Assembly: GCF_000382205.1 (NCBI RefSeq)
Contig: NZ_KB907787.1
Span: 659,176 to 723,175, forward strand
Origin: Dyadobacter beijingensis DSM 21582
GTDB taxonomy: Bacteria > Bacteroidota > Bacteroidia > Cytophagales > Spirosomataceae
Reading direction: 5' to 3'
DNA: 64,000 nucleotides
Under the pieces are notes generated by a model. The model saw only the letters and a program-made list of their open reading frames with translations. It made no database searches and was not told the origin of the DNA. A program made the position numbers and the translations under genes. Below, in pieces: positions 2,502-14,385 of this stretch. The stretch's first letter is position 1. Each line of letters starts with the position of its first letter.

Positions 2502-5453
2502 ATGAGATTAAAAAGGTTTACTTCATTCGTCAGTATGCTGGTTCTGGGAGTGTGCTTGTGCATACCCGATGCGTTTTCTCAAAAATGGGGCGGTGCTCAT
2601 GGTAATGAGTGGCTCGCTGGCAAGTATGGCCAGCAATGGGTACGTATCGGTGTAGGTGCAAAAGGCATTCACAGGGTAGCAATTTCGTCGTTGCCAGCGG
2701 CATTTCAATCGGCTGACAAAGCCAAGCTGCAGTTGTGGCACCGTGGCAATCAGGTCGCGATCCTGAAAGCCGACGATACTGAAATTCTTTTTTTCGGGGT
2801 GCCTAATGATGGTGCGTCGGATGAATTGTTATATCGCCTTCCCACTTCCCGGAAGAACCCTTATTTCAGTACTTTCTCCAATGAAAGCGCTTACTTTCTG
2901 ACAATTGGCGCTGAGAATGGTTCGCGTGCGGCAGTGGAAAATACGGCAGTTGATAATGGTGTCGGTGCAACTGAATTTCACAATCAGGTTGAGCTGAAAA
3001 CCTATCAGACCGAGTATACCCATTTTACCTATTATTCAACACGGCCGTCTACTTTCAACAGCTATTTTGAAGATGGTAAAACCGGTACAGGCTCACGACT
3101 CCCGCTCACAACCGGCGCGGCAAGCCCGGTATATGTGACCAACCCTGCGTCCGCGTCGCAGCCCGGGTCAGTAGCGAGTAACTTCAATTTTGCTGCAAAA
3201 AACATATTCGGAGGTTCTATTCCGAAGGTGAAATTGCTTTTGAGCGGAAGAGGTAATGCTGCCCAGGTGCAGGTTAAGGTGGGTAAGACGAGTGCAGCCC
3301 TCAGATCGGTGACGACCGTCAACACATTTGACTTCGGACCCCAGGAAATCAATTTCGACCTTGATCCGTCGGTGGATTATGATGCCAACGGTGGTACATT
3401 CGGATTTCAAAACGTCGTTCCTTCGTCGTGGTTCTCTGTTAGCTACTTTACAGTATCTTACGACCAGACGATCGATGCGCAAGGTTTGAACACATATCAG
3501 TTCAACCTGCCGGCTGCGCCTGACGGCTCCAAATCAAGGGTGCCGATCGCTAATCCGCCTGCGAACCCGCTGTTTTACGATATTTCAAATATCGATAGCC
3601 CCCGCATTATCCAGGGAGCTGCATCCAACCTGATGGTAACACGTAACGGTGCGGCGTTGAACCTGCTCGTTACCAATGCCGCTCAGAACATCAACGTAGC
3701 TGCCGGTAAAATTTCTACCGTAACATTCCAGGAAATCAGTCCTGCGAGCTACAACTACCTGATTATCGCTGCGGATAACCTCGCTGCTTCTGCGCAGGCA
3801 TTTGCAACCTACCGTCAGAGTGGCTCGCCAGGTGTGAAATACGATCCCGTTGTCGTGAAGGTGAAGGACCTGTACAATGAATTCAACTATGGCGAACCAA
3901 GCCCGGTTGCGATTAAAAGATTTGTGGACTACATGATTTCGGATGGCAACAAATCGAAATTCCTGTTGCTGCTCGGCAAATCGATCACCAGACCAGACAA
4001 AGTAGTAAAGGAATTGCCGGATGAAGTGCCAACAGTGGGCTTCCCTGGCTCCGACCTTTTGCTGGTAGACGGTCTGCGCGGTACTCCGGACGACGTTCCT
4101 GCGATCCCGGTTGGCCGTATTTCCGCGCAAACCGATGCAGAAGTAAATGCATACCTGGCGAAGATCCAGGCGTATGAGGCTGAGAAGACCGTCGCATGGA
4201 GAAGAAATGTATTGCACATCAGCGGTGGTAAAGATCTGGGCGAGATCAACCAGTTCGGAGGATATCTGAGCACGATCGGTACAACCGTAGCGAGCTCTCC
4301 GTTCAATGGTAGTGTTACCGCAAAATTGAAAACCCAGGCGGCCGATGTGATCGAAGAATTGAACATTGCCAACGAAATCAACAATACCGGGATGGGGATG
4401 ATCAGCTATTTTGGTCACGGCTCTACCTACCGGACAGATTTGAACCCTGGCTACGTGACTGATCCAGGAAAAGGTTACAACAATACCAAATTCCCTGTGT
4501 TGTTCTACAATGGCTGCGGTGTCAATAATGTTTTCAGTGGTCTTTTTGCTACTACGGTCAATACCAGCTCTTCACGCCCGTTGTCGCTCGACTGGCTGCT
4601 CGCGCCAGGTAAGGGTGCTATCGTGGTGTTCGGAAATACCTGGGATGCATATGCGAGTACTTCCAACGAATATCTGGATCGCCTGTATCCCGTGATCTTC
4701 TCGAAAACGGACAAAGATCGTGGCACCATCGGCCAAATCTTGCAGGATGTTGCATTGCAAACCAAGCTGGCGAAGGGTTATACCTACAATCCCGGACAAA
4801 ACAGCCGCGTGGCTGCGTACTATGACGCCGACCGCGCGAATATCCACCAGGTATTGCTTCAAGGTGACCCGGCGCTGAAAATCCTGATCAACGAAGCACC
4901 GCTGCCGGTCGACCTGATCTATTTCAACGCCAAAACCATTGGCGAAAAAGTGGAACTGACCTGGAAGACTGCTTCGGAACGCAACAACAGCCACTTCATT
5001 ATCGAAAGAAGCTACAATGCTCGTAATTTCGAAGAAGTTGGCCGCGTAGAAGGAAAAGGCGATTCCAATTCAGAAGTAACCTATTCGTTCGTGGATTCCA
5101 AGCCGTTCAGCGGAAGAAGCTACTATCGCTTGAAGCAAGTTGACCTTGACGCCGTAGTGAATGGAAGCATCCAGAAAGGTGAGGAAACGCTGTCGAGAAT
5201 CGTTTCAGTTGAAGTAGACAAAACTGCCGCTATGTCGGTTTCTCCCAACCCGTCTTCGGAATATTTCGAGATCAAACTGGAAGTGCCGACTCAGATCAGC
5301 AAATGGAAGCTGGTAGATGTGAATGGCCGTTTGATCAAAGACAACGGAACGGGAAGCCGCGTGAATCTGACGAATCTTTCACCAGGAGAATACATTGTGG
5401 AGGTTACCACTGTCAATGGTGATAAATACACCAAGAAGGTAATCAAACTGTAA
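2502..5453 (+). CDS. PorU2-like C25 (gingipain-family) cysteine peptidase with T9SS sorting domain
   Basis: 983 residues. A signal peptide ends near DAFSQ, followed by an NEWL...QQWVRIGV segment typical of the N-terminus of PorU2-like proteins. The peptidase C25 domain covers roughly residues 400-790. The catalytic pair is visible as His639 in YFGHGS and Cys672 in YNGCGVNN, 33 residues apart, which is the spacing I recall for the gingipain His-Cys pair. After it comes a Bacteroidetes-typical module (LTWKTASERNNSHF, then YYRLKQVD). The last 70 residues (SVSPNPSS to the terminal KKVIKL) are a type A T9SS C-terminal sorting domain. Expected to be exported by the Sec and T9SS systems to the cell surface. 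It is the upstream member of a tandem pair. Substrate unknown; a sortase-like role is only inferred from family resemblance. Confidence 0.85.
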   Translation: MRLKRFTSFVSMLVLGVCLCIPDAFSQKWGGAHGNEWLAGKYGQQWVRIGVGAKGIHRVAISSLPAAFQSADKAKLQLWHRGNQVAILKADDTEILFFGVPNDGASDELLYRLPTSRKNPYFSTFSNESAYFLTIGAENGSRAAVENTAVDNGVGATEFHNQVELKTYQTEYTHFTYYSTRPSTFNSYFEDGKTGTGSRLPLTTGAASPVYVTNPASASQPGSVASNFNFAAKNIFGGSIPKVKLLLSGRGNAAQVQVKVGKTSAALRSVTTVNTFDFGPQEINFDLDPSVDYDANGGTFGFQNVVPSSWFSVSYFTVSYDQTIDAQGLNTYQFNLPAAPDGSKSRVPIANPPANPLFYDISNIDSPRIIQGAASNLMVTRNGAALNLLVTNAAQNINVAAGKISTVTFQEISPASYNYLIIAADNLAASAQAFATYRQSGSPGVKYDPVVVKVKDLYNEFNYGEPSPVAIKRFVDYMISDGNKSKFLLLLGKSITRPDKVVKELPDEVPTVGFPGSDLLLVDGLRGTPDDVPAIPVGRISAQTDAEVNAYLAKIQAYEAEKTVAWRRNVLHISGGKDLGEINQFGGYLSTIGTTVASSPFNGSVTAKLKTQAADVIEELNIANEINNTGMGMISYFGHGSTYRTDLNPGYVTDPGKGYNNTKFPVLFYNGCGVNNVFSGLFATTVNTSSSRPLSLDWLLAPGKGAIVVFGNTWDAYASTSNEYLDRLYPVIFSKTDKDRGTIGQILQDVALQTKLAKGYTYNPGQNSRVAAYYDADRANIHQVLLQGDPALKILINEAPLPVDLIYFNAKTIGEKVELTWKTASERNNSHFIIERSYNARNFEEVGRVEGKGDSNSEVTYSFVDSKPFSGRSYYRLKQVDLDAVVNGSIQKGEETLSRIVSVEVDKTAAMSVSPNPSSEYFEIKLEVPTQISKWKLVDVNGRLIKDNGTGSRVNLTNLSPGEYIVEVTTVNGDKYTKKVIKL

Positions 5454-5507: not shown

Positions 5508-8500
5508 ATGTCACTGAAAGTTTTACGGCATTTACAGTTAATTCTGTTGTTGGGAATCGGGTTTTCCCGGAGCGTTTTTGCGCAATGGGGAGCACCTTAT
5601 ACCAATGAATGGATTGCGTACGATCAGCCCTACGTTAAGCTGAAAGTTTCTCAAAAGGGAATTTATAAAGTACCATTCTCGGCATTGCCCGCAGGTTTTC
5701 CTGTTAACCAGCCCGAAAAACTGCAACTGTGGCATCGGGGTACGCAGGTAGCAATTCTGAGCGCCGTAAACAACGAGATCCTTTTTTACGGCGTGCCCAA
5801 CGACGGTTCGATAGACTCGCTTCTGTACCGGCCGATGAGCAGCCGGATGAACCCCTACACAAGTCTTTACTCCGACGAAAGCTCATACTTCCTCACCGTT
5901 GGAAAAACCAACGGCCTGCGTGCCGAAGCTGTGGGCTCCACCACCGGCGCAGGAACAGTAGCAACCTCACACGTGCGGACGGACGTAACGGCATTTGCCA
6001 ATGAATACTCATTGAGCACGCTGAGCTCTATACGGGCCAGTTTTTTCAACAGCTTTTTCGAAAATGGAGCCAGCAAAACCGGCGTCACAGTGTTGCCGGG
6101 CAAGTCGGTTACTTACAATTTTCAATTGACGAAACGTGCAGCCGGCGGCAAGCCGCTAGTTAAACTAATGGTGCACGGACGCAGCAACAACACCCGGTCA
6201 ATCGAAGTGTATGTTGGTAAGACAGAAGCATCGGCCCGGAAAGTTTCGGCCATAGCGAATGCCAACTTTACCGCGTCGATTTATTCATTTGAACTGGAAG
6301 AGGCCGATCTCGCGGCCGACGGCAGCGGCATATTGCTTCTGAAATCCATCGCATCGGATACCCGCGACCGGTTTTCCCTGGCATACTACACCATTACTTA
6401 TAACCAGGCTACGAGCATAGGCTCGGAAAAAAGCCTGGAATTCAATTTCCCCAAAACAACAGACGCTAGCACACACGTAAAAATTGCCGGAGCCTCGGCG
6501 GGCAGTAAAGTATATGATATTTCAAATGCCGATGTGCCGCGGCTTCTGCCTGGTAACGGCGCCGAGCTGGTTGTACCTCGCGTGAAGGACAAGAACCTGA
6601 CGGTGCTTCTGACCAACGAAACGCTCTCGATTGCGGCTGCCAAAATCTCATCCGTTACGCTTGTCAAGCCCGATGTGAAGAAATACAATTACCTGATCAT
6701 TACCAACCAGACGTTGGAAGACGGCGCCAAAGCATACGCCACTTATCGCGCGTCGGCAGAAGGGGGCTCGTTCGTGCCGCTGGTGATGAAAATAACGGAT
6801 GTTTACGATCAGTTCAACTTCGGCGAGCCGAACCCGGTAGGAATCCGCAGGTTCGTGGATTATATGCTATCCGACAAAAATCTGGATAAGTACCTTTTCC
6901 TGATGGGCAAATCCATCACATTCAATGAACGGATGGTGCGTGAACTCCCCGACGAAGTGCCGACGGTCGGTTTTCCCGGATCGGATATCGTGCTGGTAGA
7001 AGGATTGGCGGGTGCGCCCAGGGAGGTGTCGGCGATCCCAGTCGGGCGTCTTTCAGCTATCACGAATCAGAATGTATACGATTATCTGGCCAAAGTAAAG
7101 GAATATGAGCATGCAGGCAGCCAGGATGTAAGCTGGAAGAAAAACATCCTTCACCTGAATGGAGGCAAGTCGTCTTCAGAAATTACGCAGCTTAAAAACA
7201 TTCTCGCGGGATTGGCGCCACTGGCCGAAAAAGGCTACATCGGGGCAAAAGTGACCCCATTTGTAAAGCAGCAGGGCGTCGGCGAAGTAGAACCGGTGAA
7301 CATTACGCCTGAAATAAATGCCGGCGTAGGGCTTCTGACCTATTTCGGTCACGGCTCGACGACCGTTACCGACCTCGATATCGGCTATATTACCGACGCG
7401 GCACGTGCGTATAACAATCAAGGCAAATACCCGATGTTGTATTTCAATGGATGCGGCGTAGGTAATGTCTTCAGTGCGCGCTTTAATACCAGTCCGTCTT
7501 CTTCCGACCGGATCGCCCTTTCGCTCGACTGGATCATTGCACCCAAACGAGGTACCGTAGCGCTCATTGCCAATACATTTGATACCTACGTTTCTTCAAC
7601 CAGCAACTATCTCGATAAACTATATACGACGCTTTTCCTCGATGCGAATACATCGAAACAGTCGATCGGGAAAATTCAGGTGGAAACAGCCAGACGGATT
7701 TTTGCCAATGGCTACAATTCCTACGATATCGCCAATGTACACCAGGCGCTTCTGCAAGGAGATCCGGCCCTTAAAATGATTTACGTAGCATCACCGGATT
7801 ACTCTGTGGATGCCGACGAGAGCATTACCATTTATTCGGAAGCGCCCGGAAAGAGCATCGAGAAGTCTGCCAACCTGCGTGCGTCGATCGTGATCAAGAA
7901 CCAGGGTAAATACAATACTGACGAAAAGCTGCCGGTTCAGCTGACCTACGTTTTCAAGGACGGTACCAGCGAGACCAAAACGCAAACCGTGGCGGCAATG
8001 CCTTACGAGGATACAATTCAAATTGCATTCCCTAACAAAGGAGCGTTGAAGCTCGTGCAGGTAAGACTGGACCCTGCAAATACGATCGTAGAATTGAATG
8101 AGTCGAATAACGTGGCCGAACTGGTCGTAGACTGGGAGATCGCTAAAAACCAGGAAGTATATCCGGCCGAAAGGGTGAAAGACGTGATCGCACCTGTTTT
8201 GGATGTAACGTTCAACGGGCGGGTGATTCAGGATGGCGAGGAAGTAGGTGCGCAACCGACCATTAAATTTACCCTGACCGACGACCGCCTGATGTCGGCC
8301 GACACAAGCTTGATGGATATTTTTATAAAACCGTGTGCGGATAACAACTGCGATTTCCAGCTTGTTCCCTACAAGGATTTGACGATCAAACAGATTTCCG
8401 ACAAGGCCGTGCAGATTGAATTGAAAACTACATTGGCTGCGGCGGGCATTTATGAAATCCTCGTCAACACGCAGGACAATTCAGGTAATGCCTCGGTCGG

Positions 8501-8816
8501 CCCGTACCAGATCCGTTTTGCGATTGGTGAAGGGGTAGAGGGTATTGAGCTGGTCTGCTCGCCGAATCCCGCAACGGACTACGTGAGGTTCCGGGTGAAA
8601 GGCATCAAGCCGGATGCGGTACAGCAGGTGCGGTATGTGATTTATGATTTGAAAGGTATTCTGCGGGTGGATCAGAGTGTCAAGCCCGCGTCATCTATTT
8701 CTGACTGGTACTGGACACCCAACGCCAGCGCCGGAACCTACATTTACAAGGCTGTGGTAACCAAGACCGATGGCTCAGAACAAACCTTTACAGGAAGGGT
8801 AAATATCATTAAATAA
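5508..8816 (+). CDS. PorU2-like C25 cysteine peptidase, second tandem copy, with CARDB-like domain
   Basis: 1102 residues, colinear with the preceding gene from the signal peptide (ending FAQWG) through the C25 domain. The catalytic pair is His615 in YFGHGS and Cys649 in FNGCGVGN. Unlike its neighbour, it carries a CARDB-like adhesion module after the peptidase (about residues 765-870, ending in TIVELNESNNVAEL), then an Ig-like segment with two close cysteines (KPCADNNCDF). It ends in a T9SS sorting domain starting near CSPNPATDYV. This is a surface or secreted peptidase by the same logic as the first copy. The shared architecture and neighbouring position indicate tandem duplication followed by divergence of the C-terminal modules. 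Confidence 0.85.
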   Translation: MSLKVLRHLQLILLLGIGFSRSVFAQWGAPYTNEWIAYDQPYVKLKVSQKGIYKVPFSALPAGFPVNQPEKLQLWHRGTQVAILSAVNNEILFYGVPNDGSIDSLLYRPMSSRMNPYTSLYSDESSYFLTVGKTNGLRAEAVGSTTGAGTVATSHVRTDVTAFANEYSLSTLSSIRASFFNSFFENGASKTGVTVLPGKSVTYNFQLTKRAAGGKPLVKLMVHGRSNNTRSIEVYVGKTEASARKVSAIANANFTASIYSFELEEADLAADGSGILLLKSIASDTRDRFSLAYYTITYNQATSIGSEKSLEFNFPKTTDASTHVKIAGASAGSKVYDISNADVPRLLPGNGAELVVPRVKDKNLTVLLTNETLSIAAAKISSVTLVKPDVKKYNYLIITNQTLEDGAKAYATYRASAEGGSFVPLVMKITDVYDQFNFGEPNPVGIRRFVDYMLSDKNLDKYLFLMGKSITFNERMVRELPDEVPTVGFPGSDIVLVEGLAGAPREVSAIPVGRLSAITNQNVYDYLAKVKEYEHAGSQDVSWKKNILHLNGGKSSSEITQLKNILAGLAPLAEKGYIGAKVTPFVKQQGVGEVEPVNITPEINAGVGLLTYFGHGSTTVTDLDIGYITDAARAYNNQGKYPMLYFNGCGVGNVFSARFNTSPSSSDRIALSLDWIIAPKRGTVALIANTFDTYVSSTSNYLDKLYTTLFLDANTSKQSIGKIQVETARRIFANGYNSYDIANVHQALLQGDPALKMIYVASPDYSVDADESITIYSEAPGKSIEKSANLRASIVIKNQGKYNTDEKLPVQLTYVFKDGTSETKTQTVAAMPYEDTIQIAFPNKGALKLVQVRLDPANTIVELNESNNVAELVVDWEIAKNQEVYPAERVKDVIAPVLDVTFNGRVIQDGEEVGAQPTIKFTLTDDRLMSADTSLMDIFIKPCADNNCDFQLVPYKDLTIKQISDKAVQIELKTTLAAAGIYEILVNTQDNSGNASVGPYQIRFAIGEGVEGIELVCSPNPATDYVRFRVKGIKPDAVQQVRYVIYDLKGILRVDQSVKPASSISDWYWTPNASAGTYIYKAVVTKTDGSEQTFTGRVNIIK

Positions 8817-8830
8817 TAGTGGAAACGGTA

Positions 8831-8873
8831 TTGAATGGTTAAGGTCGGTAATTCTCTGATTTTAACCATTCAA
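8831..8873. terminator. Shared convergent hairpin overlapping the cyclase stop codon
   Basis: TTGAATGGTTAA (8831-8842) pairs perfectly with TTAACCATTCAA (8862-8873), a 12-bp stem with a 19-base loop. It sits at the convergent ends of the second C25 peptidase gene (stop 8816) and the minus-strand cyclase gene (stop 8839) and includes the last cyclase codons. No long T-run follows on either strand, so the terminator role is inferred. Confidence 0.45.
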
Positions 8874-10773
8874 GCCACGCCGCAACGGAAATCGTTCGCG
8901 TCACGTGGAAAAGGCTCCGGGTATACTCGTCCATCGCAATATTCTCCGTTTTCAAAAATTTGACCGTCCCCTCAAATTTCCTCCGGTCGACGTACTGCCA
9001 GATTTCCGAAGTATCATTCAACAGCTCTTGCGACTGATCGTACAATGCGAGCGTCGACAGGCGCCCGCGCGGGCCGATATGTGTTTTCTGCGAACGTAGC
9101 CGCACCTTTTCGGGAAGTATGCCCTTCATCGCCTCCCGGAAATGCATTCTGCCCAGCCCATTGCCATACTTGGTAACCTCGGGAACAGCCATGCAAAGCT
9201 CAAATAGTTCCTTGTCGAAAAATGGCGAACGGCTTTCGAGTCCATAGTCCGCGGCCAGAATGCTCCGGTTTTCGTTGTGAAATATGGTGTGATGGTTATA
9301 AATTTCCTCAAAAGAAGCCTGAAATGTGGCCGGCACATCACCGCGCAACAGCGTTGACAATCCGGATAATTTCGGACGTTTTTTGAATGCCGATTCCAGA
9401 AAGTCGTCGCGCAACAATGTGATGGGCTGTATTGATTTTCCTTTCAACTTCTTCCAAACAGCAGACAACCCGCGTTTGCCGAAATACTGGGGTGACAACT
9501 TAAAATGCGCCGTGAGCTCACGGTATAAGCCCGGCAACTGCGCAGGGCCCATGATTCGCAGCGAACGGGAAATTTGCCGGTACAGGAAATTCTGCTCCAC
9601 AATTTGCGTCTGTTCTTCGAAAGTCAATTTATCCCAGTTGGGGAAATCGCCTGCTTTGGAAAAGAATTGCGTTCGTTTGGTCAGGAGATCTTTTAATAAT
9701 GCCCAATCTTTTTGCTGGTACAGCAGCGCAGGATATTCAAACCCGCTCCCAACGACTGAGTCGCCGCCATTTCCATTGAACAATACCTCGCAACCGAGCT
9801 GTGAAGCAAGCTCATACACCCCTTTTTGAAACGATGGGGATACGAACGTGGGCTGTGGATAACCCAGGATAGCCGTATGTTGCTGAATAGCTTCTAAATG
9901 CTTTTCAGAGAGCAGAATCTCGTGATGCGATGAATGAATGTTTCTCGCGACTTCGTGCGCAAAATCCTTGTCATCCGACGCCTCGCCCTGTGTGTTGTAA
10001 TAAAAGGTGTGCAAAGGATTTTCAGGCGCGTAGAGACGCGCGAGTGTGCTCACCGACGAGGAATCGAGGCCGCCGCTCAAATGCGATCCCATGATGGTCC
10101 CGTCAGCCGGTAATTTGCCTGTAACAGCGTCTGTAAGCAAGGTTTTGAACCGTGCGGCGAAGTCAGGTAGTGAGTCTGCCAGTGGCGGGATCTCGAATTT
10201 AGTGAAGGGACGGGCTGTCACACTTTCGGCGCCGGCCGTTAATACGTGGCCCGGGAAAACGCATTTGACATGCTCGTAAAACGTTTCTCCGTTATAGTCG
10301 AGCTGCATGTCGCCGGAAAAGGTGAGGAAGGATTTGAGCCTCGCCTCATTGAGCGTTGCAAGTTGCTTGTCTTTCAGCAGGGAGAGCAGTCCGTGGAGAT
10401 TGGACGAGAATGCGAAGAACTCGCCGGGAATATGTGTATAGTAAAGGGTATGCAGGCCAAAGATGTGCCGCGCGAGATGTACCTGGCCATTCGACTCTTC
10501 TATCCAGATCCCGGCAGCAAGCTTATCCCCCAATTTCGGGATCAATGCCTGAAAATCAGAAAGCGATGTTAAGACAACGGGACTAACGCCCCAGAGCTTA
10601 ACATCGCTTTTGTTTTTCCCCTGAAATCCAACTACGAATGCATCGTTAGCTGTTTTTGACTTGCCTGGCTCCGAAAAGTTCAGAAAGCCGCCTTCCCAGG
10701 AGATTGAGTGTTGTTCGCCAGATTGACTTGACCAGTTGTTCGAATGATAAGAAACAAACCCTTGTATCAGCAT
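8839..10773 (-). CDS. Asparagine-synthetase-like lasso peptide cyclase candidate
   Basis: 644 residues. The N-terminal third resembles the class II glutamine amidotransferase fold, but residue 2 is Leu, so the N-terminal Cys nucleophile needed for glutaminase activity is missing. The ATP-pyrophosphatase domain is intact: P-loop SGGLDSSSV at 233-241, NGNGGDS at 333-339, and a later ESRSPFFD block. Loss of the glutaminase cysteine with a kept AMP-forming domain is the pattern of lasso cyclases (McjC/LarC type), which adenylate an Asp or Glu side chain and close the macrolactam. A 51-codon gene with a lasso-type leader lies 44 bases upstream on the same strand. The alternative is an unrelated asparagine-synthase-like amide-forming enzyme. 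Confidence 0.75.
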   Translation of the reverse strand: MLIQGFVSYHSNNWSSQSGEQHSISWEGGFLNFSEPGKSKTANDAFVVGFQGKNKSDVKLWGVSPVVLTSLSDFQALIPKLGDKLAAGIWIEESNGQVHLARHIFGLHTLYYTHIPGEFFAFSSNLHGLLSLLKDKQLATLNEARLKSFLTFSGDMQLDYNGETFYEHVKCVFPGHVLTAGAESVTARPFTKFEIPPLADSLPDFAARFKTLLTDAVTGKLPADGTIMGSHLSGGLDSSSVSTLARLYAPENPLHTFYYNTQGEASDDKDFAHEVARNIHSSHHEILLSEKHLEAIQQHTAILGYPQPTFVSPSFQKGVYELASQLGCEVLFNGNGGDSVVGSGFEYPALLYQQKDWALLKDLLTKRTQFFSKAGDFPNWDKLTFEEQTQIVEQNFLYRQISRSLRIMGPAQLPGLYRELTAHFKLSPQYFGKRGLSAVWKKLKGKSIQPITLLRDDFLESAFKKRPKLSGLSTLLRGDVPATFQASFEEIYNHHTIFHNENRSILAADYGLESRSPFFDKELFELCMAVPEVTKYGNGLGRMHFREAMKGILPEKVRLRSQKTHIGPRGRLSTLALYDQSQELLNDTSEIWQYVDRRKFEGTVKFLKTENIAMDEYTRSLFHVTRTISVAAWLEWLKSENYRP

Positions 10774-10817: not shown

Positions 10818-10973
10818 TCAAGCATCTGGTGCGTAGTTCGGCTCAGTTCCTTCATCATCAGGCTGGCTGCCGAGTTTTCCTTTGGTCAGCTTGTTAACAC
10901 TCCCGTGTTGAACGAGCACCGGCTTCCGGTAAGACTTTTTTGTCTGTGTAGAGTGCGATGTCAATGTTCTCAT
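10818..10973 (-). CDS. Putative lasso peptide precursor (51 aa)
   Basis: A small gene read directly from the minus strand: ATG at 10971-10973, TGA at 10818-10820, 51 residues. The leader holds SYRKPVL (Y15, P18, L20), then G24 and T30, matching the YxxPxL...G...T pattern by which RRE proteins recognise lasso leaders. Lasso leaders end two residues after a conserved Thr, which predicts a core starting at Gly32: GKLGSQPDDEG followed by TEPNYAPDA. With Gly as core residue 1, the Asp residues fall at core positions 8 and 9, exactly where the isopeptide acceptor is needed. The cyclase candidate follows after 44 bases. No strong ribosome-binding site and no full-consensus promoter are visible in the 135 bases upstream. 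The product is unproven. Confidence 0.72.
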   Translation of the reverse strand: MRTLTSHSTQTKKSYRKPVLVQHGSVNKLTKGKLGSQPDDEGTEPNYAPDA

Positions 10974-11108: not shown

Positions 11109-11828
11109 TTAACGGCTGCCAAATTCCAGGATTTTGCGCGATTTGTGACTGCCCGATTCTATTTTTTTCGAACCAATACATTCGTCATTTTGGCAAAATT
11201 CAAAGGCAGTCTGGTCGTCAGAAATGAGGCCCACGCCGCGTCCGTATTGTTTAACCGTCACATAGCGGTTGATGATCGAAGTATCGAAGCGTTCCACCAC
11301 GGTAAGCACGTCGGCGAATGACTGGTCGTTGACCTGCGCAGGTTTGTTCACCGATTCATAAAAACATTGCTGCTTGTCCAGACTGTTGTAGCTGTTGCCG
11401 TTCCAGGTAGTCCGGGAGTCGATCGGGAAAGTGAGCGACAGGAAAGGCAGGTTGTCGATGTTGGTCAGGAGCTTGTCGGGATACTTTTGAATGGTGTATT
11501 CCTTTACTTTCTGCCAATAATCTGAGGATGAGCTGCGTGTGGATCTCGCGACAATGTACGTCACAATGCCCGCCGAATCCGAGGCAATGCGGTCGATCTC
11601 GTCCTTTTCCTGCCATTTGCTCACCGCTGGCTGCGTCTGGCCGGTGGAATACACTTCCTGGTCTACCTGGTAAACAATGTAATGACCCACAGCGGTAGGG
11701 TAGTAGCCGTAAGGATCGGAAGGGCCGGTGTCGTCGCCATCGCAGGCAAACAGAATAACCGACGCTACTGCAAGAATAGTGATGTGTCTAAGAAACGGTC
11801 TGAAAATCGTTTGTAAAGAATTCTTCAT
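11109..11828 (-). CDS. Lipoprotein of unknown function
   Basis: 239 residues. A signal peptide ends in the lipobox LFAC (Cys near residue 29), followed by an Asp-rich linker (DGDDTGPSDP). The mature part is beta-rich with no domain I recognise. It contains a segment around YYPTAVGHYIVYQVD that resembles other small Bacteroidetes lipoproteins. It is the last gene of the gcvT-to-udk minus-strand run, 24 bases after udk. A 135-base gap separates it from the lasso precursor gene, so a role in that system is not indicated. Expected location is the inner leaflet of the outer membrane or the cell surface. Confidence 0.6.
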   Translation of the reverse strand: MKNSLQTIFRPFLRHITILAVASVILFACDGDDTGPSDPYGYYPTAVGHYIVYQVDQEVYSTGQTQPAVSKWQEKDEIDRIASDSAGIVTYIVARSTRSSSSDYWQKVKEYTIQKYPDKLLTNIDNLPFLSLTFPIDSRTTWNGNSYNSLDKQQCFYESVNKPAQVNDQSFADVLTVVERFDTSIINRYVTVKQYGRGVGLISDDQTAFEFCQNDECIGSKKIESGSHKSRKILEFGSR

Positions 11829-12555: not shown

Positions 12556-14385
12556 TTAATTAATAATTGCCAATTTACCCGCCTGACGTTCATTGCCGTC
12601 GGCTCCCACGACAAACACCATATAGATGCCTCCGCGTGCGCGCCGTCCCGTGTAATCGTTCAGATTCCAGGACGCCATACCACCTTCCGAACGGGTTTCG
12701 AAAACGAGCCTGCCCGCCAGGTCGGTGATCTTCACGGTCGACTGTGCGGTGAGCCCGCTGATGCCTACATTGCCCGAATAACCCGGTCTGACGGGGTTCG
12801 GAAATATGCGGATGTCTGCCAGGCGTTCCGCCGCCGTTTTAGAGTCGGTTTGGTAGGACACCATGCCGGCGGGCGTATCTATAAAAAGCAGCCCCGTTTC
12901 CCCTTCGAAACGCAGTGCTGTGATCATGTCGGAGGGAAGCGGGCTGTCTGCCGCCGTAAATTTCCGAACCAGTTCGGTGCCGTCCGCGCTGAATTGGTAC
13001 AGGCCCGTACGCGTACCGATCCATTTGCGGTTGCCAGGTTCCACGGCAATGGCCGTACATTCTTCATTGTTGAACAACCGGCGCTGGCCGTAAATGGGCA
13101 ACAATGCATCTACCCGGCTCGCTTCGAGTACGCCGTCGGGAATGAAGTAGCCCGCGCCTTTCGCGCTTGCGAACCAGACGTACCCGTCCGTGTCGAGCGC
13201 AAGACTGTTAATTTTCGAAGCCGGCAAGCTGCCATTACCAATGGAGGTCGATAGCACCTTTTTGCGGGAGCCGTCTGCATTGCTCACAATGATACCGCCG
13301 CCCAATGCCTCGGGCAGGCGTGTCCACGAGAGGCCGGCGAGATCAGTAATGACCGAATCGGGGCGGGGCGAGATAGTCGTATCGGTTTGGGCAGGGGAAA
13401 TTGGTTTGAAAGCCCCGAACTGATTCGTGACCAGCCCATTTTGAGGATCGGCGACCCACCATGCATTCCCATCGGCGCGCAGCCCCGCGCGAATGCCCGT
13501 GAAAAGTGGATTGGTCAAGGTCGTCGTCGTGTTACCCTGGCCAATGTTCACAATGGCGGTACCGGTCGTGGCGGTTAGCACGTCTCCGCTATCGAGGAGC
13601 CGCAATGCGGTGCTTACATTTGCATAGACCAGTTTCCAGCTTCCTTTTTCATATAGGTAAATACCTTTTCCGGAAACAGCAGCATAAATCGCATTGCCAA
13701 ATGCCGCTATACTGGTCACATTGCCAGGCGCAGGAATGCTTTTCCAATTGGCAAAATACTGCCGGTTCACGTCTGCGCGCATGGATGTGGCCAGCACATT
13801 GCCTTGTGATGTTGTTACAAAAAGGGAATCACCGCCGAATGCGAGATCGCTTACTGCTATCTGTGCGCCGTTGGTACCGATGTAGCGGTAGGTTTCTTCG
13901 ACCTGTTTGAGCCGGGAATCCAGCACCAGCACGCCGAAGCTCGAAGCGATATAGGCCAGTTCATCCCTGAAGACGATGCGCCGGATCGCTTTGTTTGCCG
14001 GTAGTCCCTGGGTGTTGTTCAAAAGGTCCCAGGTTTCGATCTGGTCCGGCTCCGACTGTTCGTTTAAGAATACAAAATCAATCACACCGTTGCGGTAGGC
14101 GAGCAGCAGCAGCTTTGAATCCGGTGAATAGCCCATCGCGCTGATGCCCGTGTTGCTCAGGCCATCGGCTTTCGACAGCGCGCGGGTGTCGCCATTCGTC
14201 GTGTTGACGGTAAAAAGTCCATTATAGGAAGCGCAATAAACCAGCGGGCCAGCATGAACGACCTGCTGTGCCGAGCGGTAATTGAAATGACTTTGCCATT
14301 GACCGATCGGCAAAACCTGTCCCAGGATGCGCGAAGGGCCGAATGCAACGGCCAGAAATAGCAACAGTATCCCCGCTTTGCGCAT
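12556..14385 (-). CDS. porZ: PorZ-like two-propeller T9SS protein
   Basis: 609 residues. A signal peptide ends near ILGQ, followed by QWQSHFNYRSAQQV, which is characteristic of the PorZ N-terminus. Repeated beta-propeller blades of the two-component-regulator type follow (for example DGLSNTGISAMGYS, WIGTRTGLYQFSADGT, LPSDMITALRF). The C-terminus (RIFPNPVRPGY... to KLAIIN) is a T9SS type A sorting or FlgD-like domain. PorZ works with the PorU sortase in attaching T9SS cargo to anionic LPS on the cell surface in Porphyromonas; that role is carried over here by homology. The protein is shorter than the roughly 775-residue Porphyromonas protein as I recall it. It lies 9 bases after the Ig-like gene, so the two are co-transcribed. 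Confidence 0.75.
   Translation of the reverse strand: MRKAGILLLFLAVAFGPSRILGQVLPIGQWQSHFNYRSAQQVVHAGPLVYCASYNGLFTVNTTNGDTRALSKADGLSNTGISAMGYSPDSKLLLLAYRNGVIDFVFLNEQSEPDQIETWDLLNNTQGLPANKAIRRIVFRDELAYIASSFGVLVLDSRLKQVEETYRYIGTNGAQIAVSDLAFGGDSLFVTTSQGNVLATSMRADVNRQYFANWKSIPAPGNVTSIAAFGNAIYAAVSGKGIYLYEKGSWKLVYANVSTALRLLDSGDVLTATTGTAIVNIGQGNTTTTLTNPLFTGIRAGLRADGNAWWVADPQNGLVTNQFGAFKPISPAQTDTTISPRPDSVITDLAGLSWTRLPEALGGGIIVSNADGSRKKVLSTSIGNGSLPASKINSLALDTDGYVWFASAKGAGYFIPDGVLEASRVDALLPIYGQRRLFNNEECTAIAVEPGNRKWIGTRTGLYQFSADGTELVRKFTAADSPLPSDMITALRFEGETGLLFIDTPAGMVSYQTDSKTAAERLADIRIFPNPVRPGYSGNVGISGLTAQSTVKITDLAGRLVFETRSEGGMASWNLNDYTGRRARGGIYMVFVVGADGNERQAGKLAIIN

Follow-up and report, generated by a model that had tools for sequence, protein, structure and literature searches.

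Lasso peptide gene clusters typically hold at least the genes A, B and C, as stated in the available part of a 2026 review (PMC13352647). Going by the available part of its description, the closest system to the one considered here is the bsf cluster of Bradymonas sediminis, which encodes a discrete B1 and B2 together with a kinase K and a nucleotidyltransferase N, and in which YxxPxL stands at -17 to -12 of BsfA, the ring joins Gly1 to Asp8, and the kinase modifies the ring residue Ser3 (PMC10368454). The genus Dyadobacter has the same set of B1, B2, K and N and the same leader spacing, and a Gly1-Asp8 ring is predicted here as well. However, all bsf genes lie in one cluster together with a transporter D, whereas in Dyadobacter the A-C genes lie far from B1-B2-K-N; the penultimate leader residue is Ile in bsf and Thr in Dyadobacter; and the modified Ser is Ser3 in bsf, while the conserved Ser of the Dyadobacter precursors is mostly at core position 5 or 6 (PMC10368454).

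Excerpts of other papers describe partial parallels. The psm cluster for pseudomycoidin, like Dyadobacter, has a kinase gene (psmK) and a nucleotidyltransferase gene (psmN), but it is a single cluster whose product is modified at a C-terminal Ser, whereas most Dyadobacter cores do not end in Ser (PMC9266682). The citrulassin pathway likewise needs a distally encoded enzyme, a deiminase; there the distal gene encodes one tailoring enzyme, whereas in Dyadobacter the distal genes encode the recognition protein and the leader peptidase (PMC12971885). Unclustered lanthipeptide proteases also put leader removal far away, once at 550,898 bp, but lanthipeptides are another peptide class, and Dyadobacter has a dedicated B1-B2-K-N block rather than a general protease (PMC8960859). 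A literature search that covered few subscription journals returned no lasso system of Dyadobacter or Spirosoma and no lasso pathway with distal B1 and B2.

Here we consider a small gene of Dyadobacter beijingensis DSM 21582. We put the probability at about 0.8 that it is a lasso precursor gene and that the genes of its pathway occupy two separate places on the chromosome, a reading that draws on gene content, conservation, distances and coding constraint. The window, by which we mean the whole stretch of 64,000 nucleotides that was analysed, contains the following features:

10818-10973, minus strand: lasso precursor gene A, 51 codons (translation, NF033521, conservation next to the cyclase across the genus)
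10881-10973, minus strand: leader, residues 1-31, with YxxPxL at 10914-10931 and penultimate Thr30
10821-10880, minus strand: core, residues 32-51 (20 amino acids), roles predicted
10878-10880, 10866-10868 and 10857-10859, minus strand: core codons for Gly1, the conserved Ser5 and the putative ring acceptor Asp8, respectively, roles predicted
8839-10773, minus strand: lasso cyclase C, 644 amino acids, Asn-synthase family (PF00733, NF033535, SGGxDS)
11109-11828, minus strand: LP, a lipoprotein and associated neighbour, listed for its position next to the cyclase
5508-8816, plus strand: PorU2-like C25 peptidase, an associated neighbour (NF052324, 896 bits, cut-off 450)
2502-5453, plus strand: second, tandem PorU2-like C25 peptidase with a type IX sorting domain (NF052324, 617 bits; TIGR04183, 39 bits; both over cut-off)
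12556-14385, minus strand: PorZ, a type IX secretion component (NF052228, 346 bits, cut-off 260)

Read from window position 10973 down to 10818, the precursor is MRTLTSHSTQTKKSYRKPVLVQHGSVNKLTK / GKLGSQPDDEGTEPNYAPDA, where the slash marks the predicted cut. The initial annotation, made from the letters of the sequence, had described a minus-strand ORF of 51 codons with Y15, P18, L20, G24 and T30, a core Gly1, Asp at core 8 and 9, and a cyclase candidate 44 bases on. The translation gives the same 51 residues, with the core beginning at G32, and the cyclase ORF does start at 10773, 44 bases past the precursor stop. The leader features of lasso precursors (YxxPxL, the Gly and the penultimate Thr) are all present, with the Tyr at -17 and the Leu at -12 relative to the predicted cut, and so are the core features, Gly1 and an acid at positions 7-9 (Asp8 and Asp9). 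NF033521, a curated lasso-leader model, covers residues 15-32 with 23.3 bits, above its cut-off of 19; no other match in the 7.4 Mb genome passes that cut-off, the next one listed reaching 11.6 bits. The lasso models NF033528 and NF033534 also match the precursor, both under their cut-offs. In D. jiangsuensis (L001) the same 51-codon ORF stands 41 bases ahead of the cyclase, among the same neighbours and with a core that differs in sequence from that of the window; another genus genome, G202, carries a precursor identical letter for letter to the D. jiangsuensis one.

The annotation had also named three findings that would refute a lasso precursor: no match to a leader model, no conservation of the small ORF beside the cyclase, and a frame broken in close relatives. 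None of them occurred. The leader model matches, all 48 genus genomes keep the ORF beside the cyclase (although no in-frame Met precedes the motif in G208), and the frame is intact in D. jiangsuensis, all of which supports the proposed identity. A chance ORF is ruled out by the leader model, the single match in the genome, the 48/48 genus pairs and the low pN/pS. The window gene is very probably a functioning lasso precursor, whose predicted lasso product has a calculated [M+H]+ of 2042.8937, compared with 2122.860 calculated for a mono-phosphorylated form and 2060.904 for the linear core.

Our genus sample comprised 48 Dyadobacter genomes with 52 precursor-cyclase pairs, extra copies included. 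The extra Asn-synthase matches of G142 and G181 (L152 in G181) are left out of the 52, and the main module of G190 is L139, by gene context, in the neighbour and distance counts and L013 in the precursor counts. By pattern and position, a precursor-type ORF adjoins the cyclase in every genome; with NF033521, 39 of the 48 reach the cut-off, and no match at E 0.5 is obtained in G203 and G142, where the precursors were recognised by pattern and position. All 52 leaders carry the same Y, P, L, G and T, and every precursor has a Gly-Ser dipeptide inside core positions 3-7, in a set that includes 46 different cores. Over 15 related precursor pairs, pN/pS is 0.17 in the leader and 0.23 in the core, which indicates that the gene is under coding constraint. 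As to the ring acid, the annotation had named Asp at core 8 and 9. Both are indeed present in the window, and the comparison across the genus favours Asp8, which occurs in 41 of the 52 precursors (40 of the 42 with Gly1), over position 9, which is Asp or Glu in only 18; a Gly1-Asp8 ring is our best prediction from these alignments.

PF00733 matches cyclase C at 134 bits (cut-off 21), and all 78 aligned cyclases share the SGGxDS residues, so that an Asn-synthase-like macrolactam cyclase, a feature of the lasso class, is present. Among NCBIfam models, the lasso cyclase model NF033535 matches cyclase C best, but its 191 bits fall short of the cut-off of 525. The D. jiangsuensis cyclase is 53% identical to that of the window, and a cyclase was found in all 48 genus genomes (34 in one search and the remaining 14 in another). 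Could A and C instead make a non-threaded macrolactam, for example a simple branched-cyclic peptide? The score below the NF033535 cut-off would suit such a product, as would the precursors that lack Gly1 (10/52) or an acid at positions 7-9 (2/52; the other 50 have one). We consider it improbable, since the leader spacing and the penultimate Thr fit lasso peptides, the genome's B2 is over the cut-off of the lasso model NF033537, and Asp8 so regularly accompanies Gly1. The same gaps in the cores do count against the split lasso pathway that we prefer, as do the scores of the cyclase, B1 and K under their specific cut-offs.

Some members of the set look damaged. Without an in-frame Met upstream of the motif, the precursor of G208 (L103) may be broken or may use another start; the cyclase ORF of G184 is 527 amino acids long; and the cyclase match of G201 contains a TAA. 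These three cases, together with the many relatives in other genera that are clustered, would fit a locus that is the decaying remnant of a lasso cluster. Against this stand the precursor and cyclase kept in 48 of 48 genomes, the invariant cyclase motif and the pN/pS of 0.17-0.23, which make decay extremely improbable; we regard a degenerate remnant as ruled out.

The window locus is not self-sufficient, because B1 and B2 are encoded elsewhere. A profile search of the D. beijingensis genome found one PqqD and one Transglut_core3 match over cut-off, side by side, so that a recognition protein and a leader peptidase, as a lasso pathway requires, are both present in the genome. They belong to a second locus:

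Locus 2 (L006), at about 1,298,170-1,301,000 of G000:C2: B1, 88 amino acids; B2, 146 amino acids; K, 315 amino acids; N, 393 amino acids

B2, a transglutaminase-like leader peptidase, matches NF033537 at 91 bits (cut-off 33), and its Cys85 and His119, which we take to be the catalytic Cys and His, are invariant in 53 of 53 sequences. B1, a PqqD-fold recognition protein, scores 67.6 bits against NF033536, under the cut-off of 80; among solved sequences it comes nearest to TbiB1 (E 6e-12), presumably the lasso recognition protein whose structure was solved with its leader. K, an HprK-like kinase, is a weak HprK relative (38 bits, model cut-off 200) with GKS loop residues that are invariant in 45 of 45 aligned sequences, and the nucleotidyltransferase N matches PF14907 at 163 bits (cut-off 31). 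B1 and B2 occur, as neighbours, in all 48 genus genomes, and the four genes were together in each of 30 remote loci examined. Pattern searches beside the block in these 30 loci gave no convincing precursor-like ORF (two matches were unconvincing); the pattern recovered 26 of 30 positive controls and may thus have overlooked a divergent precursor close to B1-B2. A further PqqD gene is present in G181 and G148 (L142, L151, L152), together with a weak B2-like match in G148 and with extra Asn-synthase genes in G181; these are perhaps unrelated second peptide clusters.

How far apart are the two halves? In D. beijingensis 628,596 bases (∼629 kb) separate B2 from the cyclase. The distance was measurable in only the 20 genus genomes that have C and B2 on one contig, where the gap is at least 558,910 bases (∼559 kb) in each; the other 28 have them on different contigs. 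A check of 53 A-C loci (52 of the genus and L001; flanks mostly ∼1.5 kb) turned up none of B1, B2, K and N. The genes read at the two loci include none that looks like a dedicated transporter, which counts against the proposed pathway. A, B and C therefore do not share one gene cluster here; that layout is usual for lasso genes, but it does not define the class chemically.

Such distances might also mean that the remote block serves another peptide, with A-C relying on a different protease or on no leader removal at all, and pseudomycoidin, going by the title of Zyubko 2019, is reportedly made without leader and leader peptidase. We find this highly improbable given that no precursor-like ORF adjoins the block in the 30 loci, that the genome has a single leader-model match over cut-off, and that B1, B2 and the A-C pair all occur in 48 of 48 genomes. 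These observations, the constant adjacency of B1 and B2, and clustered relatives that hold the same genes together argue for one pathway in two parts.

In the split pathway that we propose, locus 1, in the window, would supply precursor A and cyclase C, and locus 2 would supply B1, B2, K and N. The remote B1 would bind the YxxPxL leader, B2 would cut after Thr30-Lys31, and C would activate core Asp8 and join it to the amine of Gly1, closing an 8-residue ring through which the 12-residue acidic tail would thread. We give roughly even odds that K phosphorylates the conserved ring Ser and that N decorates the product further.

Several genomes carry extra A-C pairs (two in G190, one in G160 and one in G096), and each of these genomes has one B2. 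This suggests that B2 is shared, as it would have to be if the extra pairs mature by the B1-B2 route. By their place in the cyclase tree, the additional cyclases of G190 belong with Dyadobacter and those of G160 and G096 with another genus. Judged from gene content, one B1-B2 station may serve A-C modules that descend from within the genus as well as modules of outside origin.

Outside the genus, 44 genomes of our 200-genome family sample have a strong cyclase, and in 25 of these, among the matches listed and with weaker B2 matches such as the partial B2 of G129 left out, B2 lies within 8 kb of the cyclase. One locus of another genus, L126, holds a C25 peptidase, LP, C, B1, B2 and K in one stretch, and the pattern found no precursor there. 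The K and B2 of Dyadobacter each form a single clade, with loci that are clustered or almost so as sisters (the clustered L126 and L130 for K, and L129 for B2). In the cyclase tree L126 and L129 fall with other genera, and L038, from another genus, falls inside the Dyadobacter group. These were quick trees with SH-aLRT support only and several long branches, and the G212 cyclase, cut by a contig end, was left out of the cyclase tree. The B1-B2-K-N block likely moved out of one ancestral cluster, but the relocation is unproven because the cyclase tree does not give the same sister as the K and B2 trees.

A second type of split was seen in genus g5 (G155, G191 and G197; L145, L147 and L149 with L146, L148 and L150), where the precursor, B1, K, N and C are together and B2 is elsewhere. 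Precursors of g5 and its relatives (L113-L116, L119-L121, L123-L125, L127, L143, L145 and L147) read LTLK-x-GS-xx-D. Under the penultimate-Thr rule this would give a core starting with Lys and a 7-residue ring, which is unusual, and these precursors may have another cut site.

The neighbours of the A-C genes offer some context. PorZ lies close by, which places the lasso locus within a secretion-gene neighbourhood. The PorU2-like C25 peptidase next to the window cyclase carries GHG and NGCG motifs, presumably with the catalytic His and Cys. LP has no Pfam match, and its structural model (pLDDT 88) gives weak fold matches (LolA-like, YmcC-like and others), with TM of at most 0.41 among the matches listed. 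Next to the cyclase, LP was found at 44 of the 48 main genus loci and a C25 homologue at 46, where flanks of ∼1.5 kb mean that a missing neighbour may lie farther out; each was found at 20 of 25 loci of other genera and at none of the four extra modules.

Strict lasso specificity of LP or PorU2 is ruled out, with LP relatives in 142 of the 200 family genomes and NF052324 matches in 147 (145 over cut-off). No C25 homologue was found near 10 LP copies that lie away from a cyclase (eight in genomes without a strong cyclase and two second copies; 15-17 kb each), and among 33 g5 genomes at least two NF052324 genes, counted as lower bounds, occur in 25 of 26 with a cyclase versus one of seven without. 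In G149 and G197, 2 of 12 LP regions, a second LP and C25 peptidase lie in the same 19-20 kb as the remote B2 with no cyclase match, which weakens a strict link to the cyclase. The pairing of LP with a C25 peptidase, rather than either gene alone, looks lasso-specific, and a functional link of the two to the lasso genes is plausible. L153 (4101-14356) and L164 (3635-13453), in two g5 genomes, have a second C25 peptidase and LP near the remote B2 and no cyclase match, and L164 also has a precursor-like fragment; in each case the cyclase may have been lost from an A-C locus.

What is new here is a split that runs through the genus and a possible shared processing station. In each Dyadobacter genome for which a distance can be given, over half a megabase separates the two loci, so that cluster-based mining would score the window locus as incomplete. 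All 48 genomes have the gene, with tails that vary behind an invariant leader, for which reason the product looks like a conserved physiological or signalling molecule rather than a sporadic antibiotic. A fuller picture, speculative and as a whole unlikely, would be a vertically inherited, genus-wide lasso pathway in which a central B1-B2-K-N station matures precursors from A-C modules far away, the ring Ser of the lasso product is phosphorylated, and delivery, attachment or turnover of the product at the cell surface depends on the PorU2-like sortase-family peptidase and the lipoprotein. Lasso peptides would then be connected with type IX secretion. Since the peptidase and the lipoprotein recur beside the cyclase, they provide a first handle on the role of the lasso product.
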